Shown: positions 5,786 through 22,162 of the stretch, one piece after another
Layout of the letters: every line of letters starts with the position of its first letter
Numbering within the stretch: position 1 is the stretch's first letter
Translations under genes and position numbers: made by a program
DNA from: a virus
Reading direction: 5' to 3' (one strand)
DNA: 22,223 nt
IMG/VR virus record: IMGVR_UViG_3300025168_000754
Location: 1-22,223 of that record
Notes under the pieces: model-generated
Told to the model about the DNA's origin: nothing
Database searches by the model: none
The model's input: the letters and a program-made list of their open reading frames with translations, nothing else

Positions 5786-7018
5786 TTATCTCCTTGGTCG
5801 GAATCCCGCTTGGAATACCTGTGTTGTCATTGTATCACCTTGTTGACTTTGAGGCAACCTCATGATACCGTTATTATTTATTCCTCCACCTGCATTTAAT
5901 CTATATACAGGAGGTGGAACTTGTGGTGGTTTAGGTGGAAGTTTTCTTCCTCCGCCGTCATCTGGTAATTTTGGTAACTTTATAGGTGGTGGTGGCTCGA
6001 ATCCTGGAGCTGAACCAAATAATCTAGGGTCCATAGCTCTTGACCTATTAAAAGGCATTGCTCCACTATCCGTTGCATATGGTGTATACGCATTATTTAT
6101 TGGCTTCCCTGTATACGGATTTATAGGTCCACTAGGTCCACTAGGTCCACTTTGCGGCGGTGGAACGTACGGCGGTTCTTCAGGCGGAACGTACGGCGGG
6201 TCTTCAGGCGGGTCTTCAGGAGGCATATACGGAGGCGGCACTTGTGGTGGCGGTGGTGGTGGCTCATCTGGTGGAGGAGGTGCATCGGGCGGTGGTCTTC
6301 TTCTTGGAGGTGGCGTAAACGGCGGCTCTTCTATTGGTGGCTCAAACGGAGGTGTAAACGGCGGGTCTTCTCTAGGAGGTGTAAACGGCGGCTCATCTCT
6401 ATCTCTTGGAGGTGGAAACGGTGGTCTAAACGGTGGTCCGTCTATTGGTGGCACATCTCTTGGAGGCTCAAACGGAGGATATTCTATTGGTGGTTCAAAA
6501 ATATATGGATTTCCAGGAGGAGGTGGAGGTGTATAAATAGGTGGTTCGTCTACAGGAGGTGGAGGCGTAAATATAGGGTCTTCTCTAGGAGGTGGAGGCG
6601 TAAATATAGGGTCTTCTCTAGGAGGAGGAGGTGGCGTAAATATATCTTTAAAAGGATTTTTAGGAGGTGTAAATATAGGTGGCTCATCTCTAAAAGTTGG
6701 GGGTGGTGTAAATATAGGTTCTTCTTCGAACACGGGAGGCTGTCTAAAGGAAGGAGGGTTTATATTCATTTTAGGTTCTGGTGGAAGTAAAGAAGCCAAT
6801 CCTTGTTCTTTTTCCGTAGCCGCAGTGCTTTTAAAATCAGCAACATCAGCTTCGTACTGGTCAGTAGCGTTTTTTATAGAATCATTAGCTTCTTTTCTAG
6901 AAAGTATAGCGTCTACAATAGGGTCGTTTTGTAAAGATTCATAATCAAAAGACATAGGTGTTGTACCTGATACGCCTCTAATACCCATTCCTCTATCAAA
7001 ATCAAATCCTCTTGCCAT
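5786..7018 (-). CDS. Extremely proline-rich virion-associated protein
   Basis: This 410-aa protein has a central segment (about residues 70-300) that is almost entirely short proline-rich repeats such as FTPPPPPREDP, PPFTPP and EEPPYVPP, with regularly placed acidic and aromatic residues. Such sequence should form extended polyproline-II rods. The N-terminal 65 residues are ordinary and charged. A GPSGPSGP stretch near 290-300 is collagen-like, and the C-terminal 110 residues include PDDGGGRKLPPKPP. The overlap with the 1167-aa gene is a single base (TAATG). Its position among putative ejection proteins suggests a virion or assembly scaffold role, but no family is recognised. The Gly-rich and Arg/Trp-rich open frames on the opposite strand are artefacts of its biased codons. 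Confidence 0.65.
   Translation of the reverse strand: MARGFDFDRGMGIRGVSGTTPMSFDYESLQNDPIVDAILSRKEANDSIKNATDQYEADVADFKSTAATEKEQGLASLLPPEPKMNINPPSFRQPPVFEEEPIFTPPPTFRDEPPIFTPPKNPFKDIFTPPPPPREDPIFTPPPPREDPIFTPPPPVDEPPIYTPPPPPGNPYIFEPPIEYPPFEPPRDVPPIDGPPFRPPFPPPRDRDEPPFTPPREDPPFTPPFEPPIEEPPFTPPPRRRPPPDAPPPPDEPPPPPPQVPPPYMPPEDPPEDPPYVPPEEPPYVPPPQSGPSGPSGPINPYTGKPINNAYTPYATDSGAMPFNRSRAMDPRLFGSAPGFEPPPPIKLPKLPDDGGGRKLPPKPPQVPPPVYRLNAGGGINNNGIMRLPQSQQGDTMTTQVFQAGFRPRR
6554..6645 (-). repeat. 33-bp tandem repeat in the proline-rich gene
   Basis: A 33-bp unit beginning AGGAGGTGGAGGCGTAAATA (plus-strand reading) starts at 6554 and 6587, with a diverged third copy at 6620. It encodes the 11-residue repeat FTPPPPREDPI. 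Many shorter degenerate copies extend across 6150-6720. Confidence 0.75.
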
Positions 7019-14950: not shown

Positions 14951-14980
14951 ATTATATATCAAAAAGTATATATTTTTAAA
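14951..14980 (-). promoter_or_regulatory. Candidate sigma70-like promoter for the virion module
   Basis: On the minus strand, TTTAAA (14980-14975) and a perfect TATAAT (14956-14951) are separated by 18 bp. The -35 matches consensus at four of six positions. The promoter overlaps the last codons of the cyclase gene and would start transcription near 14944, about 70 nt before the first ORF. This is the only sizeable gap on the minus strand between 5076 and 22223, which supports a transcription boundary here. Confidence is limited by AT-richness. Confidence 0.4.
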
Positions 14981-16692
14981 GCTTTTTCTTTACCTTTTAC
15001 TTTCATAGGTTTTAAAGGTTTAAGAACAACACCGCAATATTTTTCTGTTTCTTCACCAATAAGTATATTTACACCCGCTTCTTTAGTAGCTGATTCTAAT
15101 CTAGCAGCTGTATTTACTGCGTCTCCAATAGCTGAATAATCAAACCTTGTATCGCTTCCCATATTACCAATAACAGCTTCTCCTGTATTTACACCTACTC
15201 CAATAGCTACCCCAATATCTGCTTTTATTATATTTTCTTGTATTTCTTTAGCACACTCTACCGCTAATTGTTCGTGATGTAATAAATCCATAGGAGCATT
15301 AAAAATAGCCATCATTGCATCACCGATAAATTTATCAACCATTCCTCCTCGTTTTTGTACACACTCTACTTGTACAGTTAATGCTTTATTCATTATTTCG
15401 GTAACTTCTTCAGGAGGTAACGTTTCAGATAATGCTGTAAACCCTCTGACGTCTGTAAATAAAAAAGTACATCTTCTTTTTTCACCACCTAGTTTTAATA
15501 AATTTGGATTCTTTTGTAATTGTTTAACTTGTCTAGGGTCAAGGTAATGTTCAAATTGTTTCTTAATTTGTTGTCTTAATTTATATTGTTCTCTAAACCT
15601 TAAATAGAAAGCTATAGCTCCTGTAATAAACTGAGAAATTAAAGACCAAGTAACATCTATTAAAACACCTGTAGTTATTGTGTAATAACCGTAGGAAGCC
15701 GTTAAAGCCGACGTAAGTAAAGCTAAACCTAACCCCCACGTTATACCTAAATAACTTATAAAAACCCATACGAGCCCTACAGACGCTATAAAAATAAGAA
15801 GTTCTAAAGCTAAAGCATAATCTGGTATATACGGACTATCTTGTATAAGTATTGACTCGGCTAGTGCTGCTTGTATTTTATGAGGTTCAAGTAATCCTAC
15901 AGGTGTAGCAATTTGCGGCATGACTCCGTTAGCAGTAACACCTACAAATACAAACTTACCGTTGACTTCCATTTCTTGTAAATCTGTTTCTGGTGTATCT
16001 ACCCATGATATCCATTTACGACCAAGACTATCTGTTTTAACAGGAGGGATACCGCGTATAGCTATTTCTTGTATACCGTTATCGTTAGTAGTAATAATGT
16101 AAGTTTTAACACCGAACAATGCTTTATATATTTGCGTACCGAAAGAAGCTACCCAACCTTCAGGAGTTCTTAACAGTAAAGGAACACGTCTAACTAATTG
16201 GTCTACTTCGGTGGGAGCACTGGCGATTCCTTGTAATATATTTTCGTAGGTGTAGAAATTTTCCTTGACTCCCTTAGTAAGTATACCACCAACATCATTA
16301 CCTTTTATAACAGTTCCTGTAGTTTTAGGATACTCTCCGCTATTAGTTTCAAACATAGCTAATACACTAGGAGCATAACCTAAAGACCTAGCAAATTCTT
16401 CATCCCCCATAAGTCTATCGGGTTGTGGAAAACTAATTACCCAACCAACACCTAAAGCTCCTTTGCCTAATATATCAAGTTGTATATCAGCTAATCTTTT
16501 TCTAGGTAACGGATACCCTCCTTCACGTTCAACGTCTTCTTCTGTTATATTAAGGATAACAAAGTTACTAGAAGGCTTTTGTTGTTTTACAAAAGTATCA
16601 AATGTTTTTAATTTAATTATTTCTGTAGGCGTTGATTGAAATAATAAAGGTAATACTAATAAAGGTAATACTAATATTATTAATTTTTTCAT
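14959..16692 (-). CDS. CHASE2-domain class III adenylate/guanylate cyclase
   Basis: This 577-aa inner-membrane sensor cyclase is predicted to make cAMP (or cGMP) in the cytoplasm in response to an envelope signal. An N-terminal membrane anchor (residues 4-19) leads into a periplasmic CHASE2 domain (about 25-285). That domain shows LVRRVPLLLR, GKFVFVGVTANGV and the ATPVGLLEPHKIQAALAES region typical of the family. Three membrane helices follow at about 293-312, 315-337 and 343-365. The class III catalytic domain (about 405-577) keeps both metal aspartates (D414 in FTDVRGF, D458 in KFIGD), K454 and D518 (in RFDYSAIGD), which suit adenine binding, and the transition-state pair N527 and R531 in NTAARLE. 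All key residues are present, so it should be active. It starts at a TAATG overlap with fecR. Adenylate is favoured over guanylate specificity, with moderate confidence. Confidence 0.92.
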   Translation of the reverse strand: MKKLIILVLPLLVLPLLFQSTPTEIIKLKTFDTFVKQQKPSSNFVILNITEEDVEREGGYPLPRKRLADIQLDILGKGALGVGWVISFPQPDRLMGDEEFARSLGYAPSVLAMFETNSGEYPKTTGTVIKGNDVGGILTKGVKENFYTYENILQGIASAPTEVDQLVRRVPLLLRTPEGWVASFGTQIYKALFGVKTYIITTNDNGIQEIAIRGIPPVKTDSLGRKWISWVDTPETDLQEMEVNGKFVFVGVTANGVMPQIATPVGLLEPHKIQAALAESILIQDSPYIPDYALALELLIFIASVGLVWVFISYLGITWGLGLALLTSALTASYGYYTITTGVLIDVTWSLISQFITGAIAFYLRFREQYKLRQQIKKQFEHYLDPRQVKQLQKNPNLLKLGGEKRRCTFLFTDVRGFTALSETLPPEEVTEIMNKALTVQVECVQKRGGMVDKFIGDAMMAIFNAPMDLLHHEQLAVECAKEIQENIIKADIGVAIGVGVNTGEAVIGNMGSDTRFDYSAIGDAVNTAARLESATKEAGVNILIGEETEKYCGVVLKPLKPMKVKGKEKALKIYTF

Positions 16693-17807
16693 TAATCACT
16701 TTGAGTAATAGTAATAATACTATCACTTCCTCCGTTAACTTTAATTATATTAGAAACACCATCTTGTATCAAAATAACAGTATAAGCTTCACTACCGTTT
16801 AAATCAACACGAACACTTTCATTAACCTGTCTTCTTAGACTAATAACGTTTCCTGTTATTAAAGCTGTTATTTGTGTATCGGGGTCTTTACCTAATAGTG
16901 TGCCTGTTATTTGTGTACTAGTAGCTTGGGCGAGGGCATCTTCTTCTTCTGCTATAGCTAGTGCATCTAATACATTAAGCAAATCTTCTAAGTAATTTAC
17001 ATCAAGGTAATTTATATCTAATTCTGTAAACTCTAAATCGTCACCTGATAAAAAATCTTCAGCTAAATAATCTATATCTAAATCATTAAAATCTAGTATA
17101 TTAGCTTTTTTAGTTGTTACTTCTTCTTGTATTATTACTTCTTCTTTCGGTGGCGTAACAATTAACATATTATCAATCATGTCTAAAGTTAAATCTAATA
17201 TTACAGGTTTACTAGGTGCTGATTCAAATACGCTTACTGTAGTTGCTTCATAAGGTTTATTTAATAAAACGGTTCCCATAGCCGTAACTACCTCTATCTC
17301 ACCACTAGATAAACCAAAAGCATCAGGAAGAAGTATTATCAATGACCTGCCTAATTCATCTACAGTAGCTGTAAAATCAGTTCCACGAATTGCTATATTC
17401 GCTGTAGGAGTTCTAAGTTCTATATTTTGTTTATCTATACGGTTTAGATTGCCAGTAATAAACCGTGCTGTCCCAAGACCAAAGGTAAGAGCCATTTTAG
17501 ATTTGCTTGGGTCAGGGTCGTAAATGTATTCATCTATAAGCAGTTGTGAGTGTTCGGTTAATTTTACTACAGAGTCATCAAGAAATCTAATAGCCATTCT
17601 GCCATTAGTAGTTATAGCTTCATCATTACTTTGAATAGAGAATTTTAAATTTGCTTTGTAAGGTTTATCTCTTACTATTTGAGCTGAACCATTTAGTTCA
17701 GATATATCTCCAATATCAGCAGCTTGTGCTTGTACCTTGGTCGTTTTGAATGACGCACACAGTAGAAGAAGCATTGCCGCCAATTGATATAATTTTAAGC
17801 CAGTCAT
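16692..17807 (-). CDS. Periplasmic FecR-domain protein with curlin-like C terminus
   Basis: This 371-aa exported protein has a signal peptide (LAAMLLLLCASF then KVQAQA, likely cleaved near residue 29). Residues about 62-150 form a classic FecR domain: ITTNGRMAIRFLDDSVVKL, then ALTFGLGTARFITG, then TPTANIAIRGTDF. Residues 220-290 are strongly acidic with pseudo-repeats DIDYLAEDFL and DINYLDVNYL. The last 30 residues contain ILIQDGVSNIIKVNGG and end in SIITITQSD. This follows the curlin pattern QxGxxN (Q348, G350, N353) and suggests a curlin-type beta-strand unit. The ATG at 17807 lies 92 bp inside the curlin-like gene in a different frame. An internal ATG at 17774 is an alternative, but the longer start gives a better signal peptide. 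FecR genes next to CHASE2 cyclases suggest a periplasmic signalling pair; the direct link is inference. Confidence 0.85.
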   Translation of the reverse strand: MTGLKLYQLAAMLLLLCASFKTTKVQAQAADIGDISELNGSAQIVRDKPYKANLKFSIQSNDEAITTNGRMAIRFLDDSVVKLTEHSQLLIDEYIYDPDPSKSKMALTFGLGTARFITGNLNRIDKQNIELRTPTANIAIRGTDFTATVDELGRSLIILLPDAFGLSSGEIEVVTAMGTVLLNKPYEATTVSVFESAPSKPVILDLTLDMIDNMLIVTPPKEEVIIQEEVTTKKANILDFNDLDIDYLAEDFLSGDDLEFTELDINYLDVNYLEDLLNVLDALAIAEEEDALAQATSTQITGTLLGKDPDTQITALITGNVISLRRQVNESVRVDLNGSEAYTVILIQDGVSNIIKVNGGSDSIITITQSD

Positions 17808-18447
17808 TATCTTGTGTACTCAGTTGTTGAATATTAAATGTTCTTTGTCCGCCTGTATGGTCTAACCAAAAATATCCACCTGCTGAAGCATTAACACCAG
17901 TACCTGTATAATTTACTGTATTATCAGAACCATCTATATCCATGTAATTGGTTGCTCCATCTATATTAATATTTGATGTAACTGTGTTATTAGAGCCTTG
18001 AATAATCCAGTCAAGATTAAGAGAAGCTGCTATTGCGGTAGTACCTTGATTTAAAGTAAATGTATTGCTACTGCCTGTAACTGCTACGTTTTGGTCAGTA
18101 CCATCTGAGCTATAAGTATTAGTTGGGTCTACTTGTATAGTAAAAGAATTAGTACCGCCCGTAAAATTATATAAACCTGTAAAAGTGTCAGCGTATATAT
18201 CACCTAAAAATTTATTAGTTGCACCAATCATATTAATATCGAGTGTCATAGTAGTGCCGTCTAAATCAAATGCAGTTAAAGACCCTGGAGTAGAATTTAA
18301 ACCACCTATAATATTTGATATGCCTAGTTGTTCTAAATCTATGTTAGCTCCAGCACCTGACTGGTCAACATATATCTCGTTGTCCGCTGCGTATAACGGA
18401 AATAAAGCAAGACATAGCAATAACTGTATGTACCTGTTCATCATCAT
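17716..18447 (-). CDS. Curlin-like secreted fibre protein
   Basis: This 243-aa protein has a clear signal peptide (RYIQLLLCLALFPLYA, cleavage near residue 20-21). The mature N terminus reads IYVDQSGAGANIDLEQLG, fitting a curlin repeat with Q29, G31, N35, Q40 and G42. The rest is Asn/Thr/Ser/Gly-rich beta sequence with spaced SNTFTLNQG, SNNTVTSNIN and SDNTVNYTG units, as in divergent curlins of marine bacteria. It ends with two cysteines (VCVIQNDQGTSTSC). It begins 4 bp after csgG and is the natural substrate candidate for that pore. Three consecutive ATG codons (18447, 18444, 18441) are possible starts. Curlin assignment rests on repeat character, export signal and neighbours. CsgA and CsgB roles cannot be separated, so no symbol is given. 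Confidence 0.78.
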   Translation of the reverse strand: MMMNRYIQLLLCLALFPLYAADNEIYVDQSGAGANIDLEQLGISNIIGGLNSTPGSLTAFDLDGTTMTLDINMIGATNKFLGDIYADTFTGLYNFTGGTNSFTIQVDPTNTYSSDGTDQNVAVTGSSNTFTLNQGTTAIAASLNLDWIIQGSNNTVTSNINIDGATNYMDIDGSDNTVNYTGTGVNASAGGYFWLDHTGGQRTFNIQQLSTQDNDWLKIISIGGNASSTVCVIQNDQGTSTSC

Positions 18448-18451
18448 AATC

Positions 18452-19288
18452 TCATTCTACCTTGTTTTCTTGTTTTTGTAAAACCCAGTAACCTTTATCA
18501 TATCCTAGATTAACTATTTCTAAGACACCACCTTCTATAGCCTTCATTAGTGCTATAGTCGATGACTCGTTTCTAGCGTTGCCTAACTCTATTTCTACTA
18601 ACTCTGTATTAGCCTCAATAAACCTAAACACGTCTTCAGATTTACCGTAACTAAATATAGTTTTTTGACTCAGCACTTCTAACAATACCTCACCCGTAGC
18701 TACAGAAACCATTCTTAAAGAAACTGTTATATTATCTTCTCTATACTGTACGCTACTACCGATACCAAGATACCTAGCTCCTATACCTCCAGATTCTAGG
18801 TTAGCTTCATAAGATATAACAGCACCTTCTATTAAAATACCAGCAAATAATAATGGTGCTAATTGTTTTTTCTTTTCTTCCTCTGTTGCAAATTTTTCTC
18901 TAGCTGACCTGATAAGCTGACGTTCTTTTGTAAGATTGTCAAGACCAACCCTTTCTACAACTCTAAAGAACTTTCCATTACCTGCATGTTTTAAAGCTCG
19001 TATAAGCAATGCATTCGGTTGTTGGGTTATAACACTACTGAATAAAGCAAACTCGCTATTACTTTTTCTTTGTCCTGTTTGGTCTGTAAAAGATGTTGGG
19101 TATACAGCAACAACAGGACTAACGGTAGGTACTGCTGCGTTCTTTAATTGTTTAGACTGTAAATCTTGAATAGATACTACGTCGTGTTTTTTAAACCTTT
19201 GTTCGTATGTATCTTCTCGTTGGTCAAGTATAGAACAACTAGAAAGTAAAAGTACCAATAGGTATTGTGATTTCTGTAACTGTGCCAT
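18452..19288 (-). CDS. csgG: CsgG-type curli secretion pore lipoprotein
   Basis: This 278-aa protein aligns along almost its whole length with CsgG, the outer-membrane lipoprotein that forms the nonameric curli export channel. It has a lipoprotein signal peptide with lipobox LSSC (C18). It also has VAVYPTSFTDQTGQRK, KFFRVVERVGLDNLTKERQL, GGIGARYLGIGSS, VSLRMVSVATGEVLLEV and GVLEIVNLGYDKGYWVLQ, each with a clear counterpart in E. coli CsgG. In the constriction-loop region the sequence is EFALFSSVITQQ. The phenylalanine corresponding to F56 appears kept, while the preceding Asn seems replaced by Leu. The ATG at 19288 sits 50 bp inside csgF in another frame, which is needed to supply the signal peptide, with GGA as a weak ribosome-binding site. 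No csgE is visible. Confidence 0.93.
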   Translation of the reverse strand: MAQLQKSQYLLVLLLSSCSILDQREDTYEQRFKKHDVVSIQDLQSKQLKNAAVPTVSPVVAVYPTSFTDQTGQRKSNSEFALFSSVITQQPNALLIRALKHAGNGKFFRVVERVGLDNLTKERQLIRSAREKFATEEEKKKQLAPLLFAGILIEGAVISYEANLESGGIGARYLGIGSSVQYREDNITVSLRMVSVATGEVLLEVLSQKTIFSYGKSEDVFRFIEANTELVEIELGNARNESSTIALMKAIEGGVLEIVNLGYDKGYWVLQKQENKVE

Positions 19289-19754
19289 CTGCTTCCGTTA
19301 TCTTTAGCGTTAATGTAACACCATCACTAGTATATTCAATAGTGTTACCTTCTAGAGTTATTGTACCTGAAGACGAGGGTGTTTCTCCAAACAGGTTGTT
19401 TACCAACTGTCTGGATAGTTCGGCATAGACTCGTGATTCTAAGTTCCTCATGAATCTAGCTAATGTACTGTTTTCTTTTTCTCGTTCTATTTCATCTTGT
19501 AAAGCTTTTATTTCTTCTTTAATAGTTAACTTACGACTAAACTCTTGGTTCTCAATTGTAAGGTAATGAGATGATGTTCCTATACCGTTAAAGCTAGGGG
19601 ATTTAAATTTATGAACTATTTGGTCAGCTTTAAGGTTTTGTACAAATATGCCTATAACTAAAGCTAAACCTACAGCGATAACAAACCATGCTATTCTAGT
19701 CTTTTCTAGTTCTTCTTCTATTGCTTCTTGTGTTGTTAATTTCTTTTTAGCCAT
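19239..19754 (-). CDS. csgF: CsgF-type curli assembly factor
   Basis: This 171-aa protein resembles CsgF, which plugs into the outer mouth of the CsgG pore and couples secretion to nucleation. After a hydrophobic export segment (AWFVIAVGLALVIGIF) the mature part begins DQIVHKFKSPSFNGIG, matching E. coli CsgF TMTFQFRNPNFGG. The C-terminal portion (LESRVYAELSRQLVNNLFG, then TDGVTLTLKI-like and DGTVTEITIPIG) matches the CsgF C-terminal region. The start at 19754 (MAKKKL) is preferred over the upstream ATG at 19790 because AGAGGG lies 7 nt before it and the preceding gene stops 10 nt upstream. A roughly 20-residue charged cytoplasmic extension (TTQEAIEEELEKTR) ahead of the signal segment and a longer central charged helix (about residues 72-105) are unlike E. 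coli CsgF. Confidence 0.87.
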   Translation of the reverse strand: MAKKKLTTQEAIEEELEKTRIAWFVIAVGLALVIGIFVQNLKADQIVHKFKSPSFNGIGTSSHYLTIENQEFSRKLTIKEEIKALQDEIEREKENSTLARFMRNLESRVYAELSRQLVNNLFGETPSSSGTITLEGNTIEYTSDGVTLTLKITEADGTVTEITIPIGTFTF

Positions 19755-19764
19755 TATAAACCCT

Positions 19765-19956
19765 CTAATGTATAACTCTTTCTTCAACATCTTCTTCGAT
19801 ATTAATATCTAAAATACCTACTACAATTAAACCAATCATATCAGCTTCCCATTCGGCTTCTTCTAAAGTTTCAGCATAAATCATAGGTCCATTAAAAACT
19901 TTATTGTTTACTTTAAACTCTGTTGTAAAAATTTTTTTAGTCTTTACGTTGGTCAT
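19765..19956 (-). CDS. Small unrecognised phage protein
   Basis: This 63-aa protein starts MTNVKTKKIFTTEFK and ends in an acidic tail. The central YAETLEEAEWEADMIGLIVVG suggests a beta-strand and helix fold seen in short hypothetical proteins of marine phages. There is no signal peptide and no convincing membrane helix. It overlaps the holin-like gene by 20 bp and stops 10 nt before csgF, so it marks the junction between the lysis genes and the curli cassette. Function unknown. Confidence 0.55.
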   Translation of the reverse strand: MTNVKTKKIFTTEFKVNNKVFNGPMIYAETLEEAEWEADMIGLIVVGILDINIEEDVEERVIH

Positions 19957-20287
19957 TGCGGTCCGCCTTTGCTATTCTATCTGTATTCATAAGTTGAGGT
20001 ACTCCAAGTATAGTTTTTAATAAAGTGTCTTGTCTGATAATTTCATTATCTACAGACCTAACTCTATCTATTAAAGCTACTAAAATACCATGTTGTGAAT
20101 CTAATTTCTGACCCAACCTTTCTTCTATTTGAGCTATTTGTGCTGATACTTTTTCATCAAGTACATCTACTTTAGTTTCCATTCCGTCTATAATTTTATT
20201 AATAAGTTTCCAAATAAATAAACCTAAACCGATTGCTGCTGCTATAGGAAAGCCAACTTCATTAATTAAAGTAACTACCGAATCCAT
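19937..20287 (-). CDS. Holin-like protein: one membrane helix plus coiled coil
   Basis: This 116-aa protein has one N-terminal membrane segment (GFPIAAAIGLGLFIWKLI, about 12-29). A long charged coiled coil follows (about 33-90, with EKVSAQIAQIEERLGQKLD) and the tail is hydrophilic. This architecture resembles BhlA/UviB-type holins and some phage spanin-like proteins. Proximity to a lysozyme gene supports a lysis role, but the same shape occurs in other membrane-anchored phage proteins. It ends overlapping the 63-aa gene by 20 bp and begins at a junction with the nuclease gene stop. Function is inferred from topology and context. Confidence 0.55.
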   Translation of the reverse strand: MDSVVTLINEVGFPIAAAIGLGLFIWKLINKIIDGMETKVDVLDEKVSAQIAQIEERLGQKLDSQHGILVALIDRVRSVDNEIIRQDTLLKTILGVPQLMNTDRIAKADRNDQRKD

Positions 20288-20709
20288 CAGATTACTGGTT
20301 CAAACTTACCGAGTTCAATTAGTTTTTCTCTATTAATTAAATGTTCTGCTTCAACATCATCTTTAGATTGACCAAAATAAGCTACTGCTAAAAACTTCTT
20401 TATCATAGCTTCGTTTATATTTAAACCATCTACAACAACGTTCCCTAAAACTCTACCATACTTACCTCTGGAGTCTTTTAGTTTAGTTTGAATAATAACT
20501 TTAGAGCCGTTTTCTACAGCTTCTTTTAAAAAAGCCGAAGCCATTTTCCCTCTAGCTTTTTCATCTAAGTCACGAGTACGTGACTCAGGAGTATCAATAC
20601 CGTATAGACGAACACGAGACTTAAACATAATATCAAATCCAAGATTTAATACAACATCAATAGTATCTCCATCAACGACTCTATCAACTTTACAACTATA
20701 CTCATACAT
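20287..20709 (-). CDS. Staphylococcal-nuclease-type (SNase/thermonuclease) endonuclease
   Basis: This protein of about 140 aa is of the SNase family, a calcium-dependent nuclease of the OB-fold type. The catalytic set is visible: DRVVDGDTIDV (metal Asp), RVRLYGIDTPES (Arg, Asp and Glu of the active site) and GKYGRVLG (second catalytic Arg). No signal peptide is present, so it should act in the cytoplasm, perhaps on host or nicked DNA, or after lysis. The ATG at 20709 forms a TAATG overlap with the upstream gene. In-frame GTG codons at 20715 and 20721 are alternatives and lie closer to the AAGG ribosome-binding site, so four extra N-terminal residues are possible. Confidence 0.88.
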   Translation of the reverse strand: MYEYSCKVDRVVDGDTIDVVLNLGFDIMFKSRVRLYGIDTPESRTRDLDEKARGKMASAFLKEAVENGSKVIIQTKLKDSRGKYGRVLGNVVVDGLNINEAMIKKFLAVAYFGQSKDDVEAEHLINREKLIELGKFEPVI

Positions 20710-21002
20710 TAGCACTTCCACCTTTTTCTTGCTTGTCGCAATCTTGAGTTTGGGTCTTTAGCAGCTTTAGGAAACTTTTTCATTTGTCCTGCAGACCTAG
20801 CACAATAAGACTTTCTTCTTTTAGCTGCTTTACTTCCTTTTTTAACTTTACCTGTAACTGCTGTTTTTAATTTACTTCCTGGATTTTTTCTTTTATAAGC
20901 GGCAACTCCTTTTTTAGTCATTCCCGCCCCTGATTTAGTCTTTCTATAATTACCACCTTTACCTGTGGTTCGTCTTATAGATTTTTCTTTTTTCCTAGGC
21001 AT
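20709..21002 (-). CDS. Lys/Arg-rich conserved phage protein (DUF6321-like)
   Basis: This 97-aa protein is highly basic. It contains the pattern GAGMTKKGVAAYKRKNPGSK, then KAAKRRKSYCARSAGQMKK, then KDPNSRLRQARKRWKC. I recognise this as a small conserved phage protein family, probably DUF6321, of unknown function. Three cysteines (in SYCARS and the terminal WKC region) and the charge suggest nucleic-acid binding or a capsid-packaged basic protein. It is joined by one-base TAATG-type overlaps to the genes on both sides, inside a run of three Lys-rich genes between lysozyme and nuclease. Confidence 0.75.
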   Translation of the reverse strand: MPRKKEKSIRRTTGKGGNYRKTKSGAGMTKKGVAAYKRKNPGSKLKTAVTGKVKKGSKAAKRRKSYCARSAGQMKKFPKAAKDPNSRLRQARKRWKC

Positions 21003-21190
21003 TAGGCTTTCTTTTTGGGTTTTTTAGCTGTCTTAGCAGAACGTTTAAAAGCAGCTGCGGTAGGAGCCCCTTTAGCTCCTTTTTTACGCATCTTTTTTCC
21101 TTCCTTGCGTTTTTTGTTTATATTGTAATAAAGACCTTTTCTAGCAGTTCTACCGTCTTTAGTTTTATGTGTTTTCTTTTTTGCTGGCAT
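21002..21190 (-). CDS. Small Lys-rich phage protein
   Basis: This 62-aa protein is about one-third lysine. The ordered part is KTKDGRTARKGLYYNINKKR, followed by a histone-like tail of KKGAKGAP and AKTAKKPKKKA repeats. Similar short proteins accompany the 97-aa type in marine phages. DNA binding or condensation is plausible from composition, but no function is known. The ATG at 21190 has GGAG about 6 nt upstream, and the stop overlaps the next gene start by one base. Confidence 0.65.
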   Translation of the reverse strand: MPAKKKTHKTKDGRTARKGLYYNINKKRKEGKKMRKKGAKGAPTAAAFKRSAKTAKKPKKKA

Positions 21191-21380: not shown

Positions 21381-21824
21381 TTATTCTCCTTTTAAAACCC
21401 TATCTTTCAATCGTATAGCTCTGGGACCTACTTGTATAGCCCAACGACTATCTAACATTTCAACTGCTGCTTTATCCCATTTATGTTCTTCCATAGCTTT
21501 TAAGAATTTTTTAAATTTTAACAACCTTGTTATACCTAAATTAAAACACATATTAGCCATAACTCTTTGTAAATCTTCAGGTAAATCTTTCCACCATTCC
21601 ATATTTCTATCTAAATCATCAATAACGTTTTGAATATCTTTTTCAAAACATTCTGTAATTCTTTCTTTAGAAACAGGAGTATCTACTACTTGTCCATGTT
21701 CAGGGTCTGTTTCTAATATTAAATGCCCTATACCAAAAGTCGGGTACCCTAAATGGTCTAAGTATATTTTATCAATACATCCTTCATCAAAAGTTAATTC
21801 GTCTTGTAATTTAGTCATATCCAT
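21381..21824 (-). CDS. T4-type lysozyme / endolysin (GH24)
   Basis: This 147-aa muramidase should cleave peptidoglycan at lysis. The GH24 catalytic triad is visible in the order E-D-T: TFDEGCIDKIYLDH followed by LGYPTFGIGH matches the T4 lysozyme arrangement. FNLGITRLLKFKKFLKAM and WAIQVGPRAIRL match conserved C-terminal regions. The open frame extends upstream to 21986, but the start at 21824 (MDMTKL) is chosen because AAAAGGGG lies 7 nt upstream, the extension overlaps the 108-aa gene, and the protein then has the normal family length. No signal peptide is present, so a holin would be needed; a candidate lies at 19937-20287. Confidence 0.9.
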   Translation of the reverse strand: MDMTKLQDELTFDEGCIDKIYLDHLGYPTFGIGHLILETDPEHGQVVDTPVSKERITECFEKDIQNVIDDLDRNMEWWKDLPEDLQRVMANMCFNLGITRLLKFKKFLKAMEEHKWDKAAVEMLDSRWAIQVGPRAIRLKDRVLKGE

Positions 21825-21835
21825 AATATCCCCTT

Positions 21836-22162
21836 TTATAATATTTCTATTATTGTATCTCCACCAGTTGATACACTTATTTGTCCAAGAGACATAGTTC
21901 CCTGAACTCCTTTTTCTGTTCCTGAATAAATATCTACCCATTTTGTTCCTGTCCAAAGTTGTAATTGTTGAGTTGCTAAATTCCAAATAATATCGCCAGT
22001 ATTAAATTGATTAAGGTTCCTTTCAGTTTCATTAACGTTTACAGTTGAACCAATATTAACTTTATTTAAACTTAATTCTAATACTCTAACTAATCTGTTA
22101 AAAAGTTCTGGTGAAAGAGGTCCTATAGCAACAGGTAATTTAGTTTCTAGTAATTTACCCAT
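21836..22162 (-). CDS. Small virion-like phage protein
   Basis: This 108-aa protein begins MGKLLETKLPVAIGPLSPEL. It carries the segment IIWNLATQQLQLWTGTKWVD (about 58-77), a pattern I associate with small phage structural or fibre-associated proteins. The C terminus is Gly/Ser/Thr-rich and beta-prone. There are no membrane segments. The start is a TAATG overlap with the gene entering from the right, and the stop lies 11 bp before the lysozyme start. A virion role is a guess from context. Confidence 0.6.
   Translation of the reverse strand: MGKLLETKLPVAIGPLSPELFNRLVRVLELSLNKVNIGSTVNVNETERNLNQFNTGDIIWNLATQQLQLWTGTKWVDIYSGTEKGVQGTMSLGQISVSTGGDTIIEIL

Follow-up and report, generated by a model that had tools for sequence, protein, structure and literature searches.

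The virus record IMGVR_UViG_3300025168_000754 (22,223 bases, analysed over its full length and called the window below) carries five consecutive genes that encode a curli-type secretion set and a putative sensor: csgF, csgG, a curlin-like gene, fecR and a CHASE2 cyclase gene (Table 1). All five are on the minus strand, and most of them overlap. In the order of transcription, a 116-amino-acid (aa) protein with a transmembrane (TM) segment and coiled coil comes first, followed by a 63-aa open reading frame (ORF), CsgF, CsgG, the curlin-like subunit, the FecR-domain protein and the CHASE2 cyclase. Overlaps measure 20 bases (116-aa gene and 63-aa ORF), 26 bases (63-aa ORF and csgF), 50 bases (csgF and csgG), 92 bases (curlin and fecR) and 1 base (fecR and cyclase). 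The csgG and curlin genes are 4 bases apart, and 191 bases lie between the cyclase gene and the next gene. The overlaps suggest a single, co-translated unit.

A preliminary description of the window, made from the sequence alone, had recognised five co-directional, tightly packed genes, and the ORFs bear this out. Its identifications of CsgG, CsgF, FecR, CHASE2 and the cyclase all score above the Pfam cut-offs, and its term 'envelope-sensing cyclase' fits the domain make-up of the last protein, a CHASE2 domain joined to a class III cyclase. The limits it gave (14959–19754) hold at the lower end only, as 19754 is an internal methionine of CsgF and the ORF reaches 19790. Existing phage families in PHROGs account for four of the five cassette proteins. 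The 63-aa ORF has no Pfam match above the curated cut-off and none in PHROGs.

Table 1. Features of the cassette and its upstream flank in the window.
Feature	Position	Strand	Evidence
CHASE2 sensor and class III cyclase, 577 aa	14959–16692	-	Pfam CHASE2 1.5e-23, cyclase 7.2e-19
Cyclase domain, residues 406–571	14980–15477	-	Pfam
CHASE2 domain, residues 12–302	15787–16659	-	Pfam
Periplasmic FecR-domain protein, 371 aa	16692–17807	-	Pfam FecR 2.6e-9
Curlin-like C-terminal tail of FecR (probable), residues 300–371	16695–16910	-	Tail pattern, weak profile support
Curlin-like secreted subunit, 243 aa, predicted beta-solenoid	17716–18447	-	Family profiles
CsgG outer-membrane secretion pore, 278 aa	18452–19288	-	Pfam CsgG 4.9e-46
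CsgF-like protein, 183 aa	19239–19790	-	Pfam CsgF 6.1e-16
63-aa ORF overlapping both neighbours	19765–19956	-	ORF list
Short holin-like protein, 116 aa, one TM segment and likely coiled coil	19937–20287	-	PHROG phrog_4898, 1e-4
Lysozyme gene, upstream of the cassette	21381–21986		

The Pfam match of CsgF spans residues 43–177. A hydrophobic segment (28–46), preceded by a long N-terminus, leads into the conserved mature CsgF part, and the protein is 42–43% identical to the CsgF of phages HTVC008M and Melnitz; a search with the single CsgF sequence matched no solved structure. For CsgG, the family profile matches solved CsgG (3.6e-72, profile positions 4–263), and the lipobox-like Cys18 is kept in 13 of 13 diverse rows. 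Of the components of type VIII secretion (curli), a CsgG pore, CsgF and a curlin-repeat subunit are found, the subunit by its family profile. A csgG relative is also present in phage record OR851715.1 (1499 bases, labelled Salmonella phage), possibly host DNA deposited as phage.

Conservation of the cassette and related systems

Viral contigs were queried with CsgG, and the best 80 of 402 and the best 80 of at least 580 confirmed stretches were taken as 160 loci. Removal of L084 (same genome as L002) and addition of the window, L002 (cultured phage HTVC008M) and L003 (Melnitz) gave 162 annotated loci, with L001, a piece of the window, excluded. Some of these contigs are nearly identical, with 123 distinct C-terminal halves among the CsgG proteins, and the CsgG of L004 is 100% identical to that of the window. 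Gene order was assessed among profiled genes only, where the contig extends far enough. Immediately upstream of csgG, csgF was found in 142/142 loci, and immediately downstream, curlin in 140/140; fecR follows on the same strand in 123/123 and the cyclase gene in 67/68. In the sole exception (L145), the cyclase gene is upstream of the cassette and on the other strand. A second curlin-like gene occurs in 23 of 68 loci. A phage–bacterium chimera joined at a cassette end (about 14.9 or 19.8 kb), a possibility raised in the preliminary description, is very unlikely because many other viral contigs show the same arrangement.

Median ratios of non-synonymous to synonymous substitution (dN/dS) relative to the window were 0.06–0.16 over six genes (13 to 78 pairs each) and 0.10–0.16 for the five cassette genes (cyclase, n = 13 pairs), using only pairs of 75–98.5% protein identity with an unsaturated proportion of synonymous differences (pS), and with dS near 1. 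By these ratios, the cassette genes are under purifying selection. The phage cassette was also seen, whole or in part, in 12 of 18 CsgG loci of genome contigs (L164–L174 and L176). The metagenome-assembled genome (MAG) bins carrying it are labelled Pelagibacter, Synechococcus, Flavobacteriaceae, Saprospirales, Rhodobacteraceae and Pirellulales, and it is most likely mis-binned phage DNA.

The preliminary description mentioned CsgG/CsgF homologues in some pelagiphage-type genomes and took the full arrangement to be new, but it is already known. Wittmers et al. (2022; PMC9599517) reported csgF-csgG-csgA/B-fecR-(csgA/B)-cyclase in nine HTVC023P-type podophage genomes and in pelagimyophages, and cultured HTVC008M carries it. 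Transcripts of this type VIII secretion system (T8SS) module were reported in the same paper, as was its presence in ocean phages at all 65 stations examined, and it is described as adding a function missing from the host genome. The window has the same genes in the same order, including FecR and cyclase, and is of the same HTVC023P phage type or closely related to it. Apart from the myophage papers cited below, no further paper on the module was found in the open-licence literature (bioRxiv preprints were outside the scope). HTVC008M and Melnitz share csgF, csgG, curlin-like, FecR and cyclase genes in the order of the window, but have a second curlin-like gene between FecR and cyclase, which the window lacks, and the Melnitz cyclase has lost two catalytic residues. 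The curli genes of myophages are described in PMC7029224 and PMC9004378, where sibling capture and lysis timing were proposed as roles.

Bacterial curli operons likewise hold CsgF, CsgG and a curlin-repeat protein, but differ in their surroundings: FecR/CHASE2 cyclase genes were found by profile near csgG in 0 of 10 distinct loci (flanks to about 10 kb, some cut by contig ends; L181, a fragment, and L221, a weak match, were excluded). The other half of the cassette also has bacterial counterparts. CHASE2 adenylate cyclases are clustered with a FecR-domain protein in Campylobacterota (PMC9239204), although the partners named there are a phosphodiesterase and a TPR protein, not curli genes. Eight bacterial FecR loci were chosen by hand, not at random, and four of them have a CHASE2 protein nearby (three cyclases and one SpoIIE phosphatase). 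In G124 (locus L231, apparent SAR11 family), a FecR gene is 1.3 kb from a CHASE2-SpoIIE phosphatase gene, which has another output domain. Certain hosts may therefore possess a FecR-CHASE2 pair themselves. The phage set looks like curli export combined with a bacterial FecR-CHASE2 sensor pair.

One difference from the published module concerns the gene ahead of csgF. A histidine kinase (HK), sometimes two, is said in PMC9599517 to be always in this position; HK and CsgA/B were left out of the trees in that paper as short, diverged and/or paralogous. In the loci annotated here, the position is held by one or two proteins of 79–128 aa with one TM segment and a likely coiled coil. The histidine kinase label was rejected, as no kinase domain was detected in 40 relatives of the 116-aa protein (E ≤ 0.01). 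In PHROGs, all 40 match phrog_18771 (function not assigned) and 6 match a holin family (best 2.4e-5). Equated by position, the published 'HK' is probably a short, holin-like TM/coiled-coil protein. Its gene is directly upstream in 43 of the 51 loci with full flanks (doubled in 24 of the 43) and only elsewhere in the other 8. In L103, it is found between csgF and csgG.

The curlin-like subunit and the FecR tail

By itself, the curlin-like protein of the window has no significant Pfam match (DUF3060 at 0.0083, below its cut-off). The preliminary description had been more guarded about this protein, and its curlin call was upheld by the family profile (62 sequences), which matches the solved curlin-repeat protein 8c50 (2.7e-7, positions 16–225 of 227) and E. 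coli CsgA (8enq, 1.4e-4). Pfam Curlin_rpt is matched by 19 of the 62 members (best 3.7e-9), and Q29, Q40 and Q208 are invariant across all rows. The curlin assignment holds through these family profiles, not through the window sequence alone. The AlphaFold2 model, all-beta after the signal helix (predicted local distance difference test, pLDDT, 85.5), adds a predicted beta-solenoid-like fold.

In FecR/PupR cell-surface signalling, an anti-sigma membrane protein is found beside an extracytoplasmic function (ECF) sigma factor and a TonB receptor. A simple hydropathy scan of the window FecR detected no TM segment. Iron-dependent sigma signalling via FecR was provisionally rejected, as neither a sigma factor nor a receptor was seen among the scanned window proteins (some ORFs only, of a record that is a fragment). 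The AlphaFold2 model of FecR (mean pLDDT 73.4; predicted template modelling score, pTM, 0.50) consists of an N-terminal signal-like helix, a FecR fold (residues ~29–214), a low-confidence linker (~215–295) and a C-terminal beta domain (~300–371) with pLDDT of about 78–86. Foldseek and VIA-align searches with this model probed mainly its FecR domain. Together with the Pfam match, the similarity of the model to the signalling domain of PupR (Z 15.4, rmsd 2.6, 136 residues aligned) identifies the FecR fold. A weaker resemblance is to a solved structure described as a 'cell surface anchoring domain' (5ix9; Z 7.2, rmsd 2.2, 72 aligned); in the sequence-profile match to FecR (0.0011), 5ix9 is named an antifreeze protein.

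The phage FecR proteins share a distinctive ending. A hydrophobic-x-hydrophobic-x-Gln motif, ending no more than four residues from the C-terminus and defined after the tails had been viewed, is present in 83 of 84 distinct FecR tails and in 10 of 927 other likely genes. Among the other cassette proteins, it was seen in 0/118 CsgG, 0/69 CsgF and 1/78 cyclase tails. The FecR tails are mutually related, and 80 were therefore clustered; the ending was retained in 65/65, 19/19, 10/10 and 6/6 representatives at 90, 70, 50 and 40% identity, respectively. Gln369 is invariant in 80 FecRs and is the sole invariant column after residue 220. When compared with curlin profiles, the FecR tail gave E values of 1e-4 and 1.7e-3, and the control tails (adenylate cyclase, CsgF and CsgG) 0.08–0.89. 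The FecR tail is probably curlin-like, a feature not mentioned in the consulted parts of PMC9599517.

Bacterial FecRs differ in this respect: the ending was found in 0 of 7 complete tails from the eight chosen loci, the eighth (L229) being cut by the contig end. When 385 genomes from the class that includes G022 (L178, labelled Roseovarius) were searched with the FecR profile, 139 gave matches, and among the matches listed, all end by profile position 248 of 363, short of the tail.

The cyclase and the host background

Catalytic residues are intact in most of the phage cyclases. D414, K454, D458 and R531 are kept in 70/70, D518 and N527 in 63/70, and all six together in 63/70, including the window. 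We take D414 and D458 to be metal-binding, K454 and D518 adenine-selecting, and N527 and R531 transition-state residues.

The window represents an HTVC023P-type pelagiphage or a close relative, because its helicase is 56% identical to that of 023Pt_psg01, 56% to DSL-LC04, 50% to HTVC027P and 47% to HTVC023P, and its primase 44% to DSL-LC04 and 39% to 023Pt_psg01. The host of phage DSL-LC04 is written as Gammaproteobacteria; for the window phage, SAR11 would be the expected host. Host functions were examined in 99 genomes from the family to which the Pelagibacter MAG behind L164 belongs, apparently that of SAR11; these are species representatives whose completeness was not established. CsgG was found in two of the 99, G411 and G413, and the phage-like contigs L164 and L176 belong to these genomes. 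The same two genomes have the only class III cyclases above cut-off, by way of the phage contigs, and one sub-threshold match occurs elsewhere. An E. coli-type cyclase was found in 0/99.

Proposed function and alternatives

The chances are about even that the cassette links phage-encoded type VIII (curli) export of curlin-like proteins to a sensor made up of FecR and the CHASE2 cyclase. In an infected cell, CsgG would form an outer-membrane pore with CsgF, and the beta-solenoid subunit would reach the cell surface by export or, if export stalls, remain in the periplasm. Periplasmic FecR would pair with curlin subunits through its C-terminal curlin-like strand, and its FecR domain would inform the CHASE2 domain of the cyclase about the load of subunits or their export, so that intracellular output of cyclic nucleotide changes. 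The proposal extends to timing, to secretion and the formation of fibres, to contact between FecR and curlin, and to which way the signal runs and what it acts on. The roles suggested in the preliminary description, such as surface fibres, an aid to lysis or superinfection control, are likewise conjectural. A more far-reaching version, possible but on the doubtful side, is that two bacterial modules were fused through a FecR that gained a curlin-like strand to read or anchor the fibre subunit. Curli export would then give rise to a cyclic-nucleotide signal, and would do so in hosts from a family seemingly without class III cyclases and almost without receptors that bind cyclic nucleotide monophosphates (cNMP).

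A number of results weigh against the export-and-sensor proposal. Structure searches with the curlin model do not single out CsgA: Foldseek returned nothing at E ≤ 0.001 and CsgA only at E 9.6, and VIA-align gave CsgA a Z of 8.0 with an rmsd of 8.7 over 105 residues, below top rows occupied by SufB/SufD and pectinase-like solenoids, which are unrelated beta-solenoids. The curlin call is therefore carried by sequence evidence. For the FecR tail, the probabilities of the curlin profile matches are low (57 and 16%), the two alignments place it on different curlin repeats, and a sequence search of the PDB with the tail found no curlin. The strict end pattern itself is met by only 27 of 78 first curlin tails, because in podophage curlins the Gln of the strand is followed by further residues, and by 23 of 30 second curlin tails. 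CsgE, a further difference from bacterial curli operons, was found in neither the window record (0/1) nor 13 other viral records (0/13), with a positive E. coli control, although the window and some of the records are probably fragments. It is not universal, being missing from alphaproteobacterial modules (PMC9599517). Seven of the 70 cyclases (L003, L125, L130, L132, L147, L148 and L152) have lost both D518 and N527 and, lacking the adenine-selecting Asp and transition-state Asn, are possibly inactive. A cNMP-binding domain, the candidate receiver of the signal, was detected in only 4 of the 99 genomes of the apparent SAR11 family and in 0 of 17 phage records. Together with the absence of an E. 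coli-type cyclase from the 99 genomes, this makes control by cAMP acting on a CRP-type host receptor unlikely. Finally, infection by Melnitz proceeds without visible clumping (PMC9004378).

The failure to find a CsgE gate and the lack of clumping also suit a different explanation, in which the pore of CsgG and CsgF serves to make the outer membrane permeable or to time lysis, and is gated by the curlin-like and FecR proteins; a role of the pore in lysis was proposed for Melnitz in PMC9004378. The overlap of the cassette with a holin-like gene, and the nearby lysozyme gene, point the same way. This is unlikely all the same, as it leaves the curlin gene in 140/140 loci and its second copy in 23/68 unexplained, and the holin-like gene is only elsewhere in 8/51 loci. 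The Melnitz-3 record, moreover, annotates two curlin-repeat genes, although PMC9004378 states that there is no csgA and csgB.

It is rather unlikely that FecR is an anchor or nucleator, with its FecR domain in the periplasm, its linker passing through the CsgG pore and its tail seeding or holding the fibre outside. Such an arrangement would suit the linker, which separates two folded parts by about 80 residues of low confidence and probable disorder, as well as the resemblance to 5ix9, but PupR-type signalling domains match better (Z 15.4 versus 7.2) and a CHASE2 cyclase gene follows fecR. The scarcity of cNMP-binding domains, the lack of an E. coli-type cyclase and the retention of six catalytic residues in 63/70 cyclases could also mean that the cyclase product acts beyond a CRP-type receptor, for example on host nucleotide physiology or a defence system, with FecR and cyclase only loosely tied to fibre export. 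This appears improbable, since almost every locus of sufficient extent has fecR and cyclase genes alongside the curli genes, and no effector was identified. A place in the virion for the curlin-like protein, for example as an amyloid-like decoration, was suggested in the preliminary description and is in keeping with the adjoining presumed virion genes (weak matches), but is very improbable for a protein with an N-terminal signal-like helix and CsgG/CsgF partners that is found in both podophage- and myophage-type genomes.

Four points go beyond the published module: the curlin-like FecR tail, the holin-like reading of 'HK', the catalytic-residue counts and the scarcity of host receptors. Specific, testable questions about the role of the module follow from the FecR tail, from the cyclase residues and from the scarcity of a known receptor, and the results argue against cAMP-CRP type control and against the histidine kinase label.

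The preliminary description placed the cassette between lysis and virion genes. The lysozyme and holin-like genes upstream are consistent with the former, while the genes downstream are virion-like through weak matches only, and nothing in the phage collection matches two window proteins of that region, 1167 and 489 aa long. Consensus scans of the window gave 23 promoter-like sites (27.3 expected) and 3 terminator-like sites (2.4 expected), no more than chance in either case. Elsewhere in the window, a primase-like protein (107–1630) matches the AEP-TOTE primase domain, a 410-aa protein (5786–7018) has long proline-rich stretches, and of two small lysine-rich proteins (20709–21190), the one of 97 aa matches DUF6321.

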